Shown in pieces: positions 9,211-26,105 of a DNA stretch of 39,851 nt. A program made the position numbers and the translations under genes. How positions within the stretch are numbered: the stretch's first letter is position 1; every line of letters begins with the position of its first letter. Source of the stretch: a virus; IMG/VR virus record IMGVR_UViG_3300025940_000014, positions 1 through 39,851 of that record; one strand, given 5' to 3'. The notes beneath the pieces are model-generated. The model searched no databases. It was not told where the DNA came from and saw only the letters and a list, made by a program, of their open reading frames with translations.

Positions 9211-9405
9211 ATGGCACTCGTCAACATCCTCATCACGATCCTCATCCTGGGGCTCGTCTTCGGACTGGTCTGGTGGGTGCTCGGGCAGATCCCGCTGCCC
9301 CCGCCGTTCCTGCTGGCGGCCCAGGTCGTCCTCGGCATCATCATGGTCATCCTGCTGCTGTCGATGCTGTTCGGCGGCATCAACGTGCCGTGGAGGCTTG
9401 GATGA
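9211..9405 (+). CDS. Small two-helix membrane protein, holin candidate
   Basis: This is a 64-residue protein with a good Shine-Dalgarno sequence (CCGGAGACCGCC). There are two strongly hydrophobic helices: residues about 3-24 (ILITILILGLVFGLVWWVL) and 34-56 (LLAAQVVLGIIMVILLLSML). They are joined by a short Pro-rich turn (PLPPP). Its length and topology resemble small bacterial membrane proteins of the Thivi_2564 type and also small phage holins. Its position between a lipoprotein and a secreted protein at the end of the late operon favours a holin, which would form inner-membrane lesions at lysis. The ATG of the next gene overlaps its stop. Confidence 0.6.
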   Translation: MALVNILITILILGLVFGLVWWVLGQIPLPPPFLLAAQVVLGIIMVILLLSMLFGGINVPWRLG

Positions 9406-10634
9406 AGCGGCTGCTCCTAGCCCTGCTGCCGCTCGCCGCCCAGGCCCAGGTGCCCCCGGTCTACAACGTCGAGGGCGTCCCGGGCAAGTACATCCTGTAC
9501 AGCAACAACCTGCTGGTCAGCCGCTACAACACCCAGCCCGAGTGCTCGACGGCGGCGACCAAGCTGAAGCAGACGACGAGCAAGACGGTCATCTGCCAGA
9601 ACACGGTGACCTACATCCGGACGCCCAAGCCGGTCGAGCCGCCGCCCGACATGCACGTCGGCCTGCCGGTCAGCGACCCGTCCACATGGCCGGTCCCGCA
9701 GCCTGGAGTGGACGGGGAGTGGCTGCAGCAGACCGGGTACATCCCGCCGTCCCGTGTTACCTGGGGCTGGGAGGAGGGCGGCGACTTCCGGCTGATCTGC
9801 AACTGGTCGAAGATGGGCTACGACGACCCCATCGTCTACCCCGGCAAGCCGGGGGCGGCCCACCACCACACGTTCTTCAGCAACACCGCCATCGACGCCT
9901 TCACCACGTCGGCGAACATCCGCTCGAAGGGCAACGCGACGTGCCGTGGCGGCACGATCAACAAGTCGGGCTACTGGATACCGTCGCTGATCGACACCGC
10001 GACCAACAGGCCGCTCGCGCCGAAGGATCTGCTGATCTACTACAAGACCGGCAACTGGCCGTACTTCAACAACAACCCGCCCATCGCGCCGCTGCCGCCA
10101 GGGCTGAAGATGATCGCGGGAGATCCGACCCGCACCACGGCGGGCGGGGTCGGCACATGGCTGTGCCTGATCCCCTCGACCGGCTCGGACCGGCCCGGGA
10201 CGAAGGGGTCGGCCATCCCGACCAACTGCCAGCCCGGCGACGAGCTATGGGGCAACATCCCGTTCCCGCAGTGCTGGGACGGCAAGAACCTCGACAGCCC
10301 GGACCACAAGAGTCACCTCGCCTATCACATCCAGTTCTGGACCGGCGACCCGCAGCGCCAGTACCGCTGCCCGGACACCCACCCGGTGGTGCTGCCGGCG
10401 ATCACGTTCCTGCCGAAGTGGACCATCCCGGCCAACGCGGACACGAGCAAGTGGCGGCTGTCGTCGGACGTCTACACTGGACCCGCAGGCTACAGCCTGC
10501 ACGGCGACTGGATCAACGGCTGGGATCAGGCGATCACCGAGTTGTGGGGCCAGAAGTGCATGACCGAGAAGCGCGACTGCGGCTCGGCGAACCTGGGTGA
10601 CGGTCGCGTCACCCAGGAGTTCCAGGGGAACTAG
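9402..10634 (+). CDS. Secreted DUF1996-domain protein
   Basis: This is a 410-residue protein with a Sec signal peptide (MKRLLLALLPLAAQAQ, predicted cut after AQA). The body, residues about 120-400, matches the DUF1996 pattern: a histidine cluster in GAAHHHTFFSN, a TCRGG/SGYWIPSL block, GLKMIAGD, then CWDGKNLDSPDHKSHLAYH and CPDTHPVVLPAITF. Many conserved His, Asp and Cys suggest a metal-binding or hydrolytic centre plus disulfides, but the family has no established activity. It is the last gene of the late operon, directly after the holin-like gene. It could act on the cell envelope or surface polysaccharide. Confidence 0.8.
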   Translation: MKRLLLALLPLAAQAQVPPVYNVEGVPGKYILYSNNLLVSRYNTQPECSTAATKLKQTTSKTVICQNTVTYIRTPKPVEPPPDMHVGLPVSDPSTWPVPQPGVDGEWLQQTGYIPPSRVTWGWEEGGDFRLICNWSKMGYDDPIVYPGKPGAAHHHTFFSNTAIDAFTTSANIRSKGNATCRGGTINKSGYWIPSLIDTATNRPLAPKDLLIYYKTGNWPYFNNNPPIAPLPPGLKMIAGDPTRTTAGGVGTWLCLIPSTGSDRPGTKGSAIPTNCQPGDELWGNIPFPQCWDGKNLDSPDHKSHLAYHIQFWTGDPQRQYRCPDTHPVVLPAITFLPKWTIPANADTSKWRLSSDVYTGPAGYSLHGDWINGWDQAITELWGQKCMTEKRDCGSANLGDGRVTQEFQGN

Positions 10635-11461
10635 GCGGGCAGGGTGCCGGCCTTCTTCTGGCCGCGCCGGATGGCGAAGCGCAGGGCCAGGAGGCCGATG
10701 CCGGCGAGCGCCAGCGAGCCGGGCTCGGGCACCGCGTTCGGCGTGGCCGAGCGGTAGGCCCACTCCTCGAAGCCATCGGCGGTCGAGGCCGACCCGCCAG
10801 CGGCACCGAACGACGTGCCGAAGATCAGCCGGCTGTCGAGCGCCACGCCAGCGAATTCGGCCACCGGGATCAGCATCGACAGGTCGTAGCCCAGGCCCGA
10901 GCCCGAGAACAGCGTGCCGTCCATGACGATCTGGTTGGTCGGCCCCATCGCATAGATCAGCGACGAGAACAGGCCATCGACGTCGGCCAAGCTGGTCACG
11001 TTCTGGTTGGTCAGCAACTGCAGCGCAGCCGACTGGGCGTCCCAGATCCGGATCGTGTCGATGCTGATCAGCTTGTCGCCGACCGAGCTAGGCTCGTTGG
11101 TGTCGAGGAAGAACTGGTAGTAGTCCGTCCCGCCCAAGGTCACCACCCCCAGGTCACTTCTCGTGAAAGTGTTGGTGAAGGTGTTGGCGTTGTCGCGCTT
11201 GTCGGTCAGCGGCAGCAGGTTGACGTTCGGGATGTCGGTTGTAACCCCGGACTCCGTCCCGTTCTGCTGCGTCCCGAGGAACGGTGTGATGACACCGGAC
11301 CCGATGTTCGACAGGTTCGTCGGGTTGGAGAAGATCGTTGTCCCGCCGCTCGTGTCCGTCGCGAAGGTGCAAGAGCCATCCTTCGCGAACAGGGTGCAGA
11401 CCTCGGCGGATGCCGAGGCTGCGGCCAGCATGAGTGCGCCGGCCAGTAGTGCTTTCTTCAT
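10631..11461 (-). CDS. PEP-CTERM sorted surface protein
   Basis: This is a 276-residue protein starting at the ATG with GGGAG seven bases upstream. It has an N-terminal signal peptide, MKKALLAGALMLAAASASA. The mature region is Ser/Thr/Asn-rich with beta-sheet character and two N-terminal cysteines. The C-terminus is a textbook PEP-CTERM signal: VPEP at about 244-247, a hydrophobic helix GSLALAGIGLLALRF, then a basic AIRRGQKK cluster. In bacteria such proteins are cleaved by a host exosortase and exported with exopolysaccharide. Its stop shares CTAG with the stop of the DUF1996 gene. The gene is the last in the minus block, 72 bp from its neighbour, which suggests an accessory (moron) gene. 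Confidence 0.9.
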   Translation of the reverse strand: MKKALLAGALMLAAASASAEVCTLFAKDGSCTFATDTSGGTTIFSNPTNLSNIGSGVITPFLGTQQNGTESGVTTDIPNVNLLPLTDKRDNANTFTNTFTRSDLGVVTLGGTDYYQFFLDTNEPSSVGDKLISIDTIRIWDAQSAALQLLTNQNVTSLADVDGLFSSLIYAMGPTNQIVMDGTLFSGSGLGYDLSMLIPVAEFAGVALDSRLIFGTSFGAAGGSASTADGFEEWAYRSATPNAVPEPGSLALAGIGLLALRFAIRRGQKKAGTLPA

Positions 11462-11505
11462 TGAGATCTCCCATTGCGCCAGGGTAGGAAGGGGCACCCC
11501 GGCAA

Positions 11506-11533: not shown

Positions 11534-11710
11534 TCAGTCGGTCCCGGCGGCGAGCCCCTCACTCGTGGGGGGTGCCTGCTGGCGGCGGCGATTCTCGGCC
11601 GCCGCCTGCTCGCCGATCTTGCCGAGCAGGGTGTAGCTGACCTTGGCCGGCAGTTCGCCGAGCGCCCGCAGCAGCAGGTTCACGTCCTCGTCGGTCAGGT
11701 CGAGGTTCAT
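11534..11710 (-). CDS. Small hypothetical protein
   Basis: This is a 58-residue protein starting at an ATG that overlaps the stop of the Cro-like gene (ATGA). It has an acidic N-terminus (LDLTDEDVNLLLRALGELP), then a helix and a basic stretch (ENRRRQQ) with a flexible end. I recognise no family. Tight coupling to the Cro-like regulator suggests a shared function or shared expression. Confidence 0.55.
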   Translation of the reverse strand: MNLDLTDEDVNLLLRALGELPAKVSYTLLGKIGEQAAAENRRRQQAPPTSEGLAAGTD

Positions 11711-12030
11711 GCGTTCCCCCAGGGGAAGTCGGGCCGGAAGGTCGACGGCGGCACCTTGAAGAACGTGGCGATCTGCTGGGCGCGGAGCACCGGCAGCGGG
11801 AAGTTGCGGTCCTTCCGGCAGGCCCGCTCCCACTTGTAGATCGACTGCGGGCGTACGCCGAGGTGCTTGGCGAGGATGGACTTGTTGTGGTCCTCGGGGT
11901 CTTCCTTGAGGTACGACTCCAGCAGGTAGACGAACGGGTGGCGCGTGATGCGCTTGTCGCCCATCGTCGCCGGCAGTTTCAGGATCGGCTGGCGTGCGCC
12001 AGGGCCGGAAGTGGGTTTGGTCTTTTTCAC
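11707..12030 (-). CDS. Cro/YdaS-like helix-turn-helix DNA-binding protein
   Basis: This is a 107-residue protein with a GTG start overlapping the helicase stop (GTGA). A helix-turn-helix is visible at about residues 51-68: ILAKHLGVRPQSIYKWERA, with the conserved GV turn and SIYKWE recognition helix. PLPVLRAQQIATFF and RPDFPW follow, as in Cro or YdaS-type proteins of prophages. The N-terminus is basic and flexible. Role by inference: a late-acting repressor or switch, possibly binding the control region at 25.5 kb. It sits at the far end of the early operon rather than next to the divergent control region, which is unusual for a Cro protein. Confidence 0.7.
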   Translation of the reverse strand: MKKTKPTSGPGARQPILKLPATMGDKRITRHPFVYLLESYLKEDPEDHNKSILAKHLGVRPQSIYKWERACRKDRNFPLPVLRAQQIATFFKVPPSTFRPDFPWGNA

Positions 12031-13454: not shown

Positions 13455-13742
13455 CTATTCTGATGTAGCCCCGAGGAACAGGTCAAGCAGTATTTTGAAG
13501 TGGACCGTGCTGTCGATCACGGTGACATGGAAACCGAGGGCCGCCAGTTCGGCGTGCCGGACCCGCTGGCGGGGTCGGAGCCGCCCACCCGGCCGCTTGA
13601 ACTCGACCGGCCAGAAGAGGTGCCCGGGCAGGACGAAGCCCCGGTCGGGCTCGCCCGTGATGCCCCGGTGCAGCTTGATCGGCCAGCAGCCCCGCCGGAT
13701 GGCGTAGGCCCGGCAGGAAGCCTCGATGGCGGCCTCCCTCAC
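13455..13742 (-). CDS. VRR-NUC domain nuclease
   Basis: This is a 95-residue protein starting at a GTG that overlaps the VapE stop (GTGA). It shows the minimal VRR-NUC fold: REAAIEASCRAYAIRRG, then GEPDRGFVLPG (acidic Asp), WPVEFKRPGGR (Glu-x-Lys of the PD-(D/E)xK core, about residues 45-52) and RQRVRHAELAALGFHVTVID. Stand-alone viral VRR-NUC proteins can act as structure-specific or Holliday-junction nucleases. Here it probably processes branched replication intermediates with the adjacent helicase. The last codons contain the -35-like element of the helicase promoter. Confidence 0.87.
   Translation of the reverse strand: MREAAIEASCRAYAIRRGCWPIKLHRGITGEPDRGFVLPGHLFWPVEFKRPGGRLRPRQRVRHAELAALGFHVTVIDSTVHFKILLDLFLGATSE
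13457..13486 (-). promoter_or_regulatory. Sigma70-like promoter for the SNF2 helicase gene
   Basis: On the minus strand TTGACC (13486-13481) is followed after 18 bases by CAGAAT (13462-13457), about 26 bases before the helicase GTG. The -35 element overlaps the last codons of the VRR-NUC gene. This is the same arrangement as the promoters at 20.7 and 23.35 kb. Confidence 0.5.
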
Positions 13743-16069
13743 GGCTTGATCCGGGGCTTCAGCAGCACGGCCTTGAGCGCATCCTTCTCGTTGCGGTTCA
13801 GCCAGAACGGCCACGCCCTGGCACCGCCGCCCCGCTTGCGCAGATCCTTCTTGTCGCCCAGGTGCTTGCGCAGGCCGTTCGCGACGCGCCGGCACACCAT
13901 CAGGTCGTCCCAGCGCAGGTTCAGCAGCTTCGCGACGCTGCCGGCGTTCACGCTGCACTCCAGCGGGTAGGCATCGCGGTGCTCCTCGCGTTCCGCGATC
14001 TCCTCGGCGATCTGCTCGGCCACGCTGTCGATGGTCTGGAACTGGACGCTGTGGCCCGTCTGCAGTTCCTCTTCCTCGGCCGTCAGCCAGTGCTGCTCGC
14101 CGCCGCCCCACCACGTCCGCACCTGGGCCCAAAGCTGCTGCATGTCGATGCCGTGGTCGACCACCGGCCGGCCGAGCACGTTCACCGGCAGGAACCGGCC
14201 CGAGCCGGTCGGGTCGTTCAGGAATTCGCCCTCGTTGACGCTGCCGCAGAAGCTGGTGCAGCGCGGCCGGGTCAGCCAGTCGGCGGCGTACGGCAACCGA
14301 TACTCGTCGGTCACGTCGGTGATGAAGGCCTTCAGGGCGCTGATGTCCGAGCGCTTGAAGGTGGCATCAAGCTCGCCCAGTTCCACGATCATCCCCTGCA
14401 GCGCCTCGTGCCTGCTGTCGCGCGACATCGCGCCGTTCAGGTTCAGGTTCTTCCCGGCCTTGCTGTAGCCTGGGGCGAGGCCCAGCAGCCACGACGTCTT
14501 GCCGATGCGCTGCGAGCCGACCAGCACCAGCACGAGGCCCTTCTGCGACTCCCGCTTGCGTTCCCAGCCGCAGGCGGCTTCGACACCTTGCAATAACCAG
14601 CGACGTAAATACTTCTTCCACAGGCCCTGGTCAGTGGTGCTGACGGTCGCGGCGAGCGCTTCAAACCGATCCTTGCCGTCCCACGGGATCGACTCGATCC
14701 AGTCCTTTGCCGGGTGCCAGTACAGGCTGTTCGCGATGCGCGCGAAACCGTCGCGCAGTTCCTTCTTGTTGCGCATGCCGACCATCGTGAACAGGTCGAC
14801 CAGCGCGCCCTCGATCAGGCCGTCGATCTCCAGCACCGACTTCGTGCCGAAGCGGGCCATGTCGATGCTCGGCGGCAGGATGTAGCTCGTCTTCGCGTTC
14901 AGCAGGTTCAGCCGGACCTGCACCCCCAGGGTACGCAAGCCGGCCTCGATGTTGCCGAAGGTCACCGGCTGGATCTTGCTGTAGCCCTCCTTAGTCCTGT
15001 CGGTGAACGACAGCGCCGTGATCGGGATGCGCCCCAGGGCGTCGGCCAGGGTGCCGATGTTGAACATGTCGGCCGGCTCGTAGGTCTGCTTGCGCACGGC
15101 CGGCTTGGCCTTCATGTCGGCCGCGATCTTCGCGAGCACGTCATGGAGGGCGGTGCTGGCGGGGGCCCGTATCGGCCCCTGCGGGCCGCCCCACTCCACG
15201 ATCTTCGCCCAGAAGCGGCGCTCGTAGTCCGGTGCGTTGTCGCCCTGGCCGTGCCCGTGCATGCACTCGATGCGGCTGCAGCCGGTGTGCGACAGGGCCA
15301 CCGGCAGGTAGTTGGAATCGTCGCGACCGTCGGTGTGCTCCTCGGCGAACGGGCATGTGATCTCGTACCAGCCATTGCTCTTGGCGTGGCGCACCATGCC
15401 GCGCTCGGCCAGCAGATCGAAGATCGGGTCGGCCATGCCGGCCGCCGGCAGGTCTGCGGGCACGAGGCGCGGCGGCTCGAGTTTTCCGGGTGTAACGCCC
15501 AGGGCTTCAGCCAGGGAGTCGAGCGTGTAAACGATGTCTGCATCGAAACTGTGCAGCACCGCCTTGAAGTTGCCCCGGCCCTTCTTGTCGTTCAGGCTGT
15601 CGGGGATGCGGAACAGCCGGCTCGACGTCCGCACTCCCGGATCTTGCAGGCCGGTGGCGATCAGGCCGTTGAACAGTTCATCGCCGCCGTGGATGTCGTC
15701 GGTCCATTCGAGCAGGAAGCCAAGCTGGAAGTTGCCCTTGCTGGTTTCGAGCACCCACGTCGGCGTGGCCTTCACGGCCGCGCGCTCGACCTTCGTCCCC
15801 ACGTCATCGAGCACGATGGCCCGCAGCGCCTTGGTGGTCTCCTTGCGTCGATGCCGGGTGTGGTTGGAGGCCCCGGTCGAGAAGTACCAGGGCCCGACCA
15901 GTTGCTGCTCGCGCCACTTCTCTGCCGGGAACACTTCGCGCGGCTCGGCCCCATCCTTGCCGGGGACCATGACCTTCTGCGCGACGAGGAAGTGCAACCC
16001 TTTCGGGCAACCGGCGGCAAGCGCGGTCAGGAATCCATATTGGTCGGTGCTACCATTCGTATCGCTCAC
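13739..16069 (-). CDS. Primase-helicase with VapE-type ATPase domain
   Basis: This is a 776-residue protein. The N-terminal part (about 55-190) resembles an AEP-type primase domain, with the acidic AIVLDDVGTK and SSRLFRIP segments. Residues 232-275 contain a zinc-finger-like region (ITCPF...HTGCSRIECMHGHG). The C-terminal domain matches virulence-associated protein E: Walker A GSQRIGKTS (518-526), Walker B IVELGELDA (561-569), then TDEYRLPYAADW and RFLPVNV. Such proteins prime and unwind DNA at the fork. It is followed by VRR-NUC with a GTGA overlap and preceded by a 118-bp gap with a terminator. Confidence 0.85.
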   Translation of the reverse strand: MSDTNGSTDQYGFLTALAAGCPKGLHFLVAQKVMVPGKDGAEPREVFPAEKWREQQLVGPWYFSTGASNHTRHRRKETTKALRAIVLDDVGTKVERAAVKATPTWVLETSKGNFQLGFLLEWTDDIHGGDELFNGLIATGLQDPGVRTSSRLFRIPDSLNDKKGRGNFKAVLHSFDADIVYTLDSLAEALGVTPGKLEPPRLVPADLPAAGMADPIFDLLAERGMVRHAKSNGWYEITCPFAEEHTDGRDDSNYLPVALSHTGCSRIECMHGHGQGDNAPDYERRFWAKIVEWGGPQGPIRAPASTALHDVLAKIAADMKAKPAVRKQTYEPADMFNIGTLADALGRIPITALSFTDRTKEGYSKIQPVTFGNIEAGLRTLGVQVRLNLLNAKTSYILPPSIDMARFGTKSVLEIDGLIEGALVDLFTMVGMRNKKELRDGFARIANSLYWHPAKDWIESIPWDGKDRFEALAATVSTTDQGLWKKYLRRWLLQGVEAACGWERKRESQKGLVLVLVGSQRIGKTSWLLGLAPGYSKAGKNLNLNGAMSRDSRHEALQGMIVELGELDATFKRSDISALKAFITDVTDEYRLPYAADWLTRPRCTSFCGSVNEGEFLNDPTGSGRFLPVNVLGRPVVDHGIDMQQLWAQVRTWWGGGEQHWLTAEEEELQTGHSVQFQTIDSVAEQIAEEIAEREEHRDAYPLECSVNAGSVAKLLNLRWDDLMVCRRVANGLRKHLGDKKDLRKRGGGARAWPFWLNRNEKDALKAVLLKPRIKP

Positions 16070-21316: not shown

Positions 21317-21360
21317 AGTGTAGCCCCAGGCTTCAATGGAGTGCAAGAGGAATTTGTCAC
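21317..21360 (-). promoter_or_regulatory. Promoter-like element for the SprT-like gene
   Basis: On the minus strand GTGACAAATT begins the element, TTGCAC follows, and after 17 bases comes CTACACT within GAAGCCTGGGGCTACACT. The GAAGCC...TACACT core recurs upstream of the genes starting at 24561 and 25403. The left edge overlaps the stop of the 70-residue gene. Confidence 0.5.
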
Positions 21361-23310: not shown

Positions 23311-23343
23311 GTTGCTTCCAGGGTTGGTGAGGTGTAAGCCTGT

Positions 23344-23749: not shown

Positions 23750-23784
23750 GGCGTGGGTTCCTGAAGAGTTACGGGTGACGAAAC

Positions 23785-24598: not shown

Positions 24599-24639
24599 AG
24601 TGTAGCCTGAGGCTCCACTCTCGTGTGGGACTATTTCAC
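24599..24639 (-). promoter_or_regulatory. Early promoter-like element, copy 2
   Basis: On the minus strand this 41-base stretch begins GTGAAATAGT, contains CCACAC, and ends in AGCC....GGCTACACT. It aligns without gaps to 25430-25470 at about 34 of 41 positions. The last bases provide a -10-like TACACT about 38 bases before the ATG at 24561. It overlaps the stop codon of the 129-residue gene. Confidence 0.6.
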
Positions 24640-25025
24640 GCCTTCGTCCACTTCTTCACCGCAGCCTTGCGGGCGCGCTCGATGCGCTCGGCCAGTTCGA
24701 TCTGGACCGCGCCGAGGGCCGGGCCGCGCACGCAGATCGTGGCGCTGCCGAAGGACTCGCCGTTGCGGGCACCGATGGCGCACGCCTCGAAGTACACCAG
24801 CGGCTTGCCGGCTTCGAGGATCTCGCTGCCGCCGACCGGGGCCTCGGTCGCCAGGGTGAGCGTGTGCAGCGTGGTGCGCCAGACGCGCATGCCGACCTTG
24901 CGGCCCTTGGCGTCGACCACGCCGAAGTCGATGTCGCTGCCCTCGTCCACGGGGCTGCGCTCGTGCTTGGCGACGTAGTTGTAGACGAGGCCGGTGTACT
25001 TGCTGGTGTAGGAGGCGAATGACAT
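24636..25025 (-). CDS. Hypothetical early protein
   Basis: This is a 129-residue protein with AAGGAACCACC before ATG. It is a mostly beta-rich globular protein: SFASYTSKYTGLVYNYVAK, then DIDFGVVDAKGRKVGMRVWR, a strand TLHTLTLATE and a C-terminal basic helix (IERARKAAVKKWTKA). No family recognised. It is the second gene of the leftward early operon. Confidence 0.55.
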   Translation of the reverse strand: MSFASYTSKYTGLVYNYVAKHERSPVDEGSDIDFGVVDAKGRKVGMRVWRTTLHTLTLATEAPVGGSEILEAGKPLVYFEACAIGARNGESFGSATICVRGPALGAVQIELAERIERARKAAVKKWTKA

Positions 25026-25052: not shown

Positions 25053-25403
25053 TTAAACGAGGGAGAAGGCGTCGAGGCTGTCGTCGCGCTCGGCCGGGGC
25101 GGCGCGCTTGCCGGTCTTCAGGCGGGCGTCGGAGATGTCCCAGCCGCCGATGCCGGTCTGGGTCCAGTTCTTGTTGACGAGGGCGAAGCGCAGCATGTTG
25201 TTGATCACATGGGTCTCGGTGGTCTCGAACTGCTCGGCCAGCTTGGCGATGGTCGGGGCCAGCTTGCCGTCCAGGCGCACGGTCTTCACCTTGTTGGCGG
25301 CGCGCCATGCCTTCTGGCGGGCTGCTGCGTCGGTGTGCTTGGCGGGGCGGCCCGGCTTGACGGTCGGGGCGGCGGCTGCGGTGTCGAGGAGCGAGGTGGT
25401 CAT
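25053..25403 (-). CDS. Ribbon-helix-helix-like putative regulator
   Basis: This is a 116-residue protein, first gene of the leftward block. PGRPAKH (about 17-23) resembles an AT-hook. VKTVRLDGKLAPTIAKLAEQFETTETHVINNMLRFAL (in part, 39-75) has the strand-helix-helix layout of CopG/Arc-type ribbon-helix-helix repressors, with the strand KTVRLD. It probably binds DNA as a dimer. The iterons and inverted repeat beginning 75 bases upstream are natural candidate operators. Its TAA stop lies inside a CGTTTAAACG palindrome (25050-25059). Confidence 0.6.
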   Translation of the reverse strand: MTTSLLDTAAAAPTVKPGRPAKHTDAAARQKAWRAANKVKTVRLDGKLAPTIAKLAEQFETTETHVINNMLRFALVNKNWTQTGIGGWDISDARLKTGKRAAPAERDDSLDAFSLV

Positions 25404-25429
25404 GTTCGGGTTCCAGCTACAGAGACTGT

Positions 25430-25470
25430 AGTGTAACCCTGGGCTTCACTCCTGTGTGGAACTATTTCAC
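25430..25470 (-). promoter_or_regulatory. Early promoter-like element, copy 1 (leftward)
   Basis: On the minus strand this begins GTGAAATAGTTCCACAC and ends GAAGCCCAGGGTTACACT, placing a -10-like TACACT about 27 bases before the ATG of the ribbon-helix-helix gene. It aligns over its whole length with 24599-24639. Confidence 0.6.
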
Positions 25471-25477
25471 GCGCAGC

Positions 25478-25562
25478 ACACCTCAGAACACCTCATTGGT
25501 ACACCTCATTCGCGGTGTCTGTTTTCATAGGTAGGTACACCTCAGAACACCTGTACACCTCA
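25478..25562 (+). repeat. Iteron array, ACACCTCA direct repeats
   Basis: ACACCTCA occurs directly repeated at 25478, 25488, 25501, 25537 and 25555, with a variant ACACCTGT at 25547. Spacings of 10, 13, 36, 10 and 8 bases put pairs on nearly the same helix face. Inverted copies lie at 25656-25663 and 25725-25732, with a variant TGAGGCGT at 25638-25645. Two composite units (ACACCTCAGAACACCT) are repeated exactly. Iterons of this kind mark replication origins or operators. Confidence 0.85.
25521..25545 (+). repeat. Left arm of 25-bp inverted repeat
   Basis: This arm is the reverse complement of 25655-25679 with one mismatch in 25 bases. It begins GTTTTCATAGG and ends in an iteron (ACACCTCAG). 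The arms are 109 bp apart, so they suit a looped protein-DNA complex better than a simple hairpin. Confidence 0.9.
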
Positions 25563-25654
25563 TTCACTTAAAGACTATGGTGGAAATGACGCACACCCGC
25601 GTCCGTGAAGGCGCGCGCAGGCGCACGCGAAGGAAAATGAGGCGTACGTGTGGA

Positions 25655-25679
25655 CTGAGGTGTACCTGCCTATGAAAAC
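25655..25679 (-). repeat. Right arm of 25-bp inverted repeat
   Basis: Partner of 25521-25545, with a single T-to-C type difference. It contains the inverted iteron TGAGGTGT and ends CCTATGAAAAC. It lies 73 bases before the first late gene. Confidence 0.9.
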
Positions 25680-25751
25680 GGCGCGTCTGATTGGGGTGAA
25701 CCCTTAGGTTGTGCTGGCCCGAAATGAGGTGTGCGCGTACAGTTCGCGGCC

Positions 25752-26105
25752 ATGACAGCACCTAAAACAGGCAAGGACAGGCCGCGCGGCCGGCTCACGC
25801 AGCCCACCAGCGGGCGCAAGCCTGGGTCGCTCAACAAGGTCACGGTCGAGTTCCGCGAGACCGTGCAGCGGCTGCTGGACGACAACCGCGAGAACATCGC
25901 GAAGTGGATCGCCCAGATCGCCGAGGGCGCGCCAGAGGTCAAGGTGCGCGGCAAGGTCATCCACGCGGCACGCCCGCCTGACCCGAGCGGCGCGCTGCTG
26001 CGGCTGTCGATGCTGGCCGACTACGCCGCGCCGAAGCTGTCCCGCCAGGAGCAGGTCGGCGAGGGCGGCGGGCCGCTGACGGTCGTCATCCGCAAAGAGA
26101 CATGA
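25752..26105 (+). CDS. Putative terminase small subunit
   Basis: This is a 117-residue protein starting at MTAPKTGKD; an upstream in-frame GTG at 25731 would add seven residues, and neither has a clear Shine-Dalgarno sequence. A basic Gly/Arg N-terminus (DRPRGRLTQPTSGRKPGSLNK in part) suggests DNA binding. Residues 30-95 are helical (VEFRETVQRLLDDNRENIAKWIAQIA, in part), and it ends EGGGPLTVVIRKET. Proteins of this layout commonly open the packaging operon. The role is inferred from position as the first late gene, 1.6 kb before the large subunit. Confidence 0.5.
   Translation: MTAPKTGKDRPRGRLTQPTSGRKPGSLNKVTVEFRETVQRLLDDNRENIAKWIAQIAEGAPEVKVRGKVIHAARPPDPSGALLRLSMLADYAAPKLSRQEQVGEGGGPLTVVIRKET

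Follow-up and report, generated by a model that had tools for sequence, protein, structure and literature searches.

The intergenic region between the genes for a ribbon-helix-helix (RHH) protein and a TerS-like protein is, with a probability that we put at roughly 0.8, a phage replication origin of the PICI/SaPI style that would be read by a VapE-type primase-helicase. The window, that is the whole stretch of DNA analysed, corresponds to a whole phage record in IMG/VR (39,851 bp). The original prediction had offered three functions for the region, a replication origin, an early/late switch or a packaging site, and it is the first of these that comparative evidence supports well. The features on which the argument draws are as follows.

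13739–16069, minus strand: VapE-type primase-helicase gene, proposed initiator (Pfam VapE-like domain, 8.6e-38; PDB 7pds, E 2.5e-16)
13742–14002, minus strand: VapE C-terminal domain, residues 690–776, winged-helix-like, proposed iteron reader (from model, fold search and covariation)
25053–25403, minus strand: RHH protein gene, left neighbour
25423–25472, minus strand: early promoter-operator of the RHH gene, AGCCCAGGG followed by TACACT
25476–25562, plus strand: left iteron set, direct, with words at 25478, 25488, 25501, 25537, 25547 (variant) and 25555
25521–25564, plus strand: left arm of the inverted repeat, TTTTCATAGG core followed by inner iterons; 25-nt core at 25521–25545
25560–25592, no strand: AT-rich segment, probable melting site (39% GC against 67.5% GC for the genome)
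25593–25635, no strand: GC-rich alternating tract CGCGCGCAGGCGCACGCG between the arms, also present in most relatives
25636–25679, minus strand: right arm of the inverted repeat; 25-nt core at 25655–25679
25636–25734, minus strand: right iteron set, inverted, with words at 25638 (variant), 25656 and 25725
25738–25743, plus strand: probable −10 element of the terS promoter, TACAGT
25752–26105, plus strand: TerS-like gene, right neighbour, assigned from its position before TerL and its own sequence, family hit absent

Nine ACACCTCA-type words lie within 255 bp (25478–25732), six direct and then three inverted, exactly as had been predicted, and the description of the arms proved equally exact: 25521–25545 and 25655–25679 are each 25 nt long, mismatch at one position and are separated by 109 bp, a spacing that does not favour a simple cruciform. 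Five of the direct words are spelt ACACCTCA (starts 25478, 25488, 25501, 25537 and 25555) and the variant at 25547 reads ACACCTGT; two inverted words are spelt TGAGGTGT (25656 and 25725), with the variant TGAGGCGT at 25638. The iterons are 9–10 bp long with a core element separate from them, several words of the left set are spaced by 10 bp, and the two sets lie ~70 bp apart. At 86% the arms grow to 44 nt (25521–25564 and 25636–25679) with 71 nt between them. Moreover, the lowest-GC 100 bp of the genome falls inside the array region, and the first 30 bp of 25560–25592 equal the genome-wide GC minimum.

The exact 8-mer is found seven times in the region, compared with a maximum of three in 2000 dinucleotide shuffles, and with one mismatch allowed it is found nine times, compared with a mean of 3.6 and a maximum of seven in 1000 shuffles. 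Outside the array, an exact ACACCTCA or TGAGGTGT occurs only once in 39,851 bp, at 23328. Other GC-rich coding stretches reach counts of 9–10 at one mismatch by way of codon repeats, and a genome-wide count of the best 8-mer with one mismatch did not tell the array apart from coding DNA of high GC. The claim that such density is unique in the window therefore holds for this word but not for the one-mismatch statistic. The region is the divergent point visible in the record, which lacks terminal repeats and may be incomplete. Cumulative GC skew, proposed at the outset as a check, shows no sign change at 25.5 kb. Among 50,697 phage records, a distant-mode search with the region and a near-mode search with the 24.9-kb middle of the genome both found no matching DNA. 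Elsewhere in the record, a palindrome, GTTAC(C/G)(C/G)GTAAC, is dispersed at 23768, 26198, 33478 and 38908 (four copies including one near-copy, compared with a shuffled mean of 0.15), and the tail-side block ends with genes for a DUF1996 protein (9273–10634, plus strand) and a PEP-CTERM motif protein (10631–11497, minus strand), which are unusual in a phage.

Many related contigs were gathered by TerL, RHH, VapE and exonuclease searches; a further TerL search, of genome contigs, returned only distant matches, most of them alphaproteobacterial. The array keeps its one place in these relatives and its words are lineage-specific. At the equivalent intergenic site the iteron words are GGAACACC (L186), GGACAGCC (L187 and L081), CACGCTACCC (L083), AGCACCAGTC (L024), AGRACTACTC (L033), CGGAACACAT (L015), GTCCACAGC (L026) and CACCACAACC (L057), while the words of this phage are found in near-identical relatives only. 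Significant arrays of the left-plus/right-minus form occur in the relatives with GGAACACC, GGACAGCC, CACGCTACCC, AGCACCAGTC, GTCCACAGC and CGGAACACAT; where an array is well resolved, almost every left word is direct and almost every right word inverted. This two-set layout is shared by the VapE-carrying relatives, being weaker in L012 and L224; the array centres are AT-rich, GAGAGA or CGCGCG, and a CATAGG or TACGCCCGG core lies beside the inner iterons in most relatives. L024 and L033 have similar RHH and TerS proteins, yet most of their words at the equivalent position differ. Conservation of the iterons, one of the checks that had been suggested, thus fails for the words and holds for the array, and absence of the repeats from close relatives, which the original prediction would have taken as refutation, would have misled because relatives keep the array with other words. 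We also observed that the iterons have drifted between the nearly identical phages L024 and L119 (genomes G007 and G027), in which the RHH proteins are 99% identical and the Cro-like end is identical; these two phages differ as well in VapE residues 300–520 and 714–750.

In the closest relative (G001, contig L007) the array is replaced together with the initiator. Most genes of this phage are 80–97% identical to those of the window, TerS is 97% identical and the DNA from terS onward shows 87% identity. The initiator slot holds a PriCT_2-AAA_25 primase-helicase in place of VapE, the two proteins being unrelated, and the intergenic DNA of L007 is unrelated to 25398–25734 of this phage. DNA homology stops at 13745 (the 3′ end of vapE) and is picked up again at 25735, on the right edge of the array; the stretch of ~16.5–25.3 kb is missing from the relative's contig, which ends in polA. 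A compact dyad with GACATKAWW is present in all three AAA_25 phages (L007, L008 and L208) and the motif in none of ten VapE phages; by our own calculation the chance of such a perfect 3-versus-10 split is 1/286. Both L208 and L224 turned up after the hypothesis had been formed, and both fitted it. A chimeric initiator was also seen (L217:4709–6463), in which an AAA_25 helicase (74%) comes after a VapE-type N-terminal part (~30% identity).

Pairwise iteron distances were then compared with pairwise protein distances among nine VapE phages by permutation test. VapE residues 690–776 correlate with iteron distance (n = 9, rho 0.56, p 0.0035), with a partial p of 0.004 given all other proteins, in a test that is small and post hoc and in which this segment was one of ten segments or proteins tried. 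Residues 300–455 also reach p 0.024. Among the same nine phages, distances of the Cro, RHH, PolA and exonuclease proteins were not significantly related to iteron distances; TerS was left out, its sequence being missing from some of the compared stretches. An earlier run on eight phages had given rho 0.49 and p 0.008. The figure rises when L012, which has a poorly resolved word, is omitted, an exclusion made post hoc. The words thus apparently track the VapE C-terminal domain, seemingly in step with it.

The VapE-type gene lies at 13.7–16.1 kb on the minus strand, with the array 9.3 kb upstream at 25.5 kb. The helicase part of its product matches PDB 7pds (SaPI5-type PriRep1 with dsDNA, E 2.5e-16), a staphylococcal island initiator. 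A model of the C-terminal fragment is winged-helix-like, with a pLDDT of ~90 over residues 31–110 of the fragment. VIA-align of this domain returned mostly winged-helix regulators at low Z (best 5.2) and the C-terminal part of 7pds at Z 3.5, scores that are weak when taken alone; Foldseek against the PDB gave no significant match to the domain, and its sequence profile found no relative there. Judged from sequence, the VapE-type protein, which had previously been named only in the clause on refutation, is the best candidate for the iteron-binding protein. In another genome (G008:C1:23734–25879) the VapE gene is in two open frames, reflecting either a sequencing error or a real break.

An origin whose iterons are read by another phage or host protein, which would in turn recruit VapE, is unlikely. 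Several small early genes are uncharacterised, and the AAA_25 swap could include a further unseen gene, since the G001 contig ends in polA. However, the covariation points to the VapE C-terminal domain, and the homologous helicases of SaPIs and of SCCmec each use this domain to bind their own iterons (PMC7581432).

Both flanks of the array bear promoter-like elements. The early promoter-operator at the left edge has a copy at 24599–24641 (81%), and a dyad, AGCCYNRGGCT, was observed just 5′ of a TACACT/TATAAT −10 element at 21322, 24604 and 25433 (minus strand; degenerate at 25433). Early promoters of relatives take the form TTGACA-N6-AGCCCNGGGCTATAAT, and the relatives' equivalents of the terS −10 element read TACACT, TACATT or TACAGT. 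The shared dyad looks like the mark of one repressor acting over several early promoters. The divergent region would therefore combine an early promoter-operator, an origin and, probably, a terS promoter, and on present sequence comparison the iterons are distinct from the early operator at the left edge.

That the region is an early/late switch, with the iterons as operators at the divergent promoters, bound by the RHH protein, by the Cro-like protein or by both, we regard as very unlikely. The array does sit at the divergent point, with AGCCYNRGGCT before TACACT at its left edge (and again at 24604 and 21322) and the terS promoter at its right edge, but the recurring dyad differs in sequence from the iterons, RHH and Cro distances do not follow iteron distances, and phages with different iterons show almost no variation in the RHH strand KT(Y/L)R(I/L)DGK or the Cro-like helix PQSLYKWE. 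What survives of the predicted switch is the early promoter-operator at 25423–25472 and the probable terS promoter at the right edge, and not the iterons as that operator; the RHH (25053–25403) and Cro-like (11707–12030) proteins are disfavoured as binders since their DNA-reading segments hardly vary while the iterons do. A packaging (pac/cos) site read by the adjacent TerS is very improbable, for although the array lies directly 5′ of the TerS-like gene and lambda cosB provides a precedent in which repeated TerS-binding sites adjoin terS, the L007 TerS is 97% identical next to unrelated intergenic DNA, and the array changes with the primase-helicase instead.

Under the preferred reading of a VapE-read origin, the AT-rich melting segment would lie between two iteron sets of opposite orientation, both of which have a core element. 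The VapE-type protein, expressed from the early operon, would bind the iterons via its C-terminal winged-helix-like domain, with one assembly per half and the two facing each other. It would then melt the AT-rich centre and load as two hexamers, and bidirectional replication would start together with the phage PolA. We infer the iteron binding, the melting site, the double-hexamer loading and the direction of replication; that each of the opposed sets seats one assembly and that replication is bidirectional are proposed because of the analogy to PICI origins.

More tentatively, it is possible that origin and initiator form a matched pair, kept together across ~9 kb of other genes, whose members are exchanged jointly, VapE going with two-sided iterons and PriCT_2-AAA_25 with a compact dyad, and otherwise diverge in concert one word at a time, creating replication-compatibility groups. 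If this is true, co-infecting phages or satellites could be stopped from using each other's initiator. A layout common to phages with a homologous initiator would tie satellite and phage replicons together. About a dozen iteron words are available as a natural series in the relatives, with the corresponding C-terminal domain known in nine of these phages. Therefore, a recognition code between VapE-type proteins and DNA is directly testable.

Several known systems resemble this arrangement in part. The alpha protein of phage P4 combines primase-helicase and origin binding in one protein, and P4 has two clusters of decamer repeats; ori and crr of P4 are kilobases apart, whereas the two sets here are separated by ~70 bp. 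As in iteron plasmid origins (RepE/Rep_3), direct repeats adjoin an AT-rich melting segment. Unlike the proposed initiator, the plasmid Rep has no helicase function and instead loads the helicase of the host, and the proteins scanned included none of the Rep_3 type. The SCCmec helicase Cch2 is self-loading, and its C-terminal domain in isolation binds the repeats of the origin, as we propose for the VapE domain here; it works with an A-family polymerase. In contrast, the putative SCCmec origin has a single small group of 5-nt repeats, located downstream of the operon (PMC7581432). The likeness to PICI/SaPI replicons is broader. PICI origins consist of an AT-rich region flanked by two iteron sets with lineage-specific words (PMC6092414), a layout also found here, and the C-terminal domain of SaPI Rep reads the origin iterons (PMC7581432). 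Likewise, a homologous VapE/D5-type helicase, here with a proposed C-terminal DNA-binding domain, is encoded in the same replicon, and a primase-like part is fused or adjacent to the initiator helicase. The present genome differs in being that of a full phage, which has a terminase, portal, head and PolA of its own, and in having iterons of 9–10 bp with a separate core element. Moreover, PICI and SCCmec origins lie directly downstream of the initiator gene, whereas this array is not 3′ of vapE and sits 9.3 kb upstream, between the early and late operons. The mechanism is therefore of a known kind; its placement and the turnover of its words are new.
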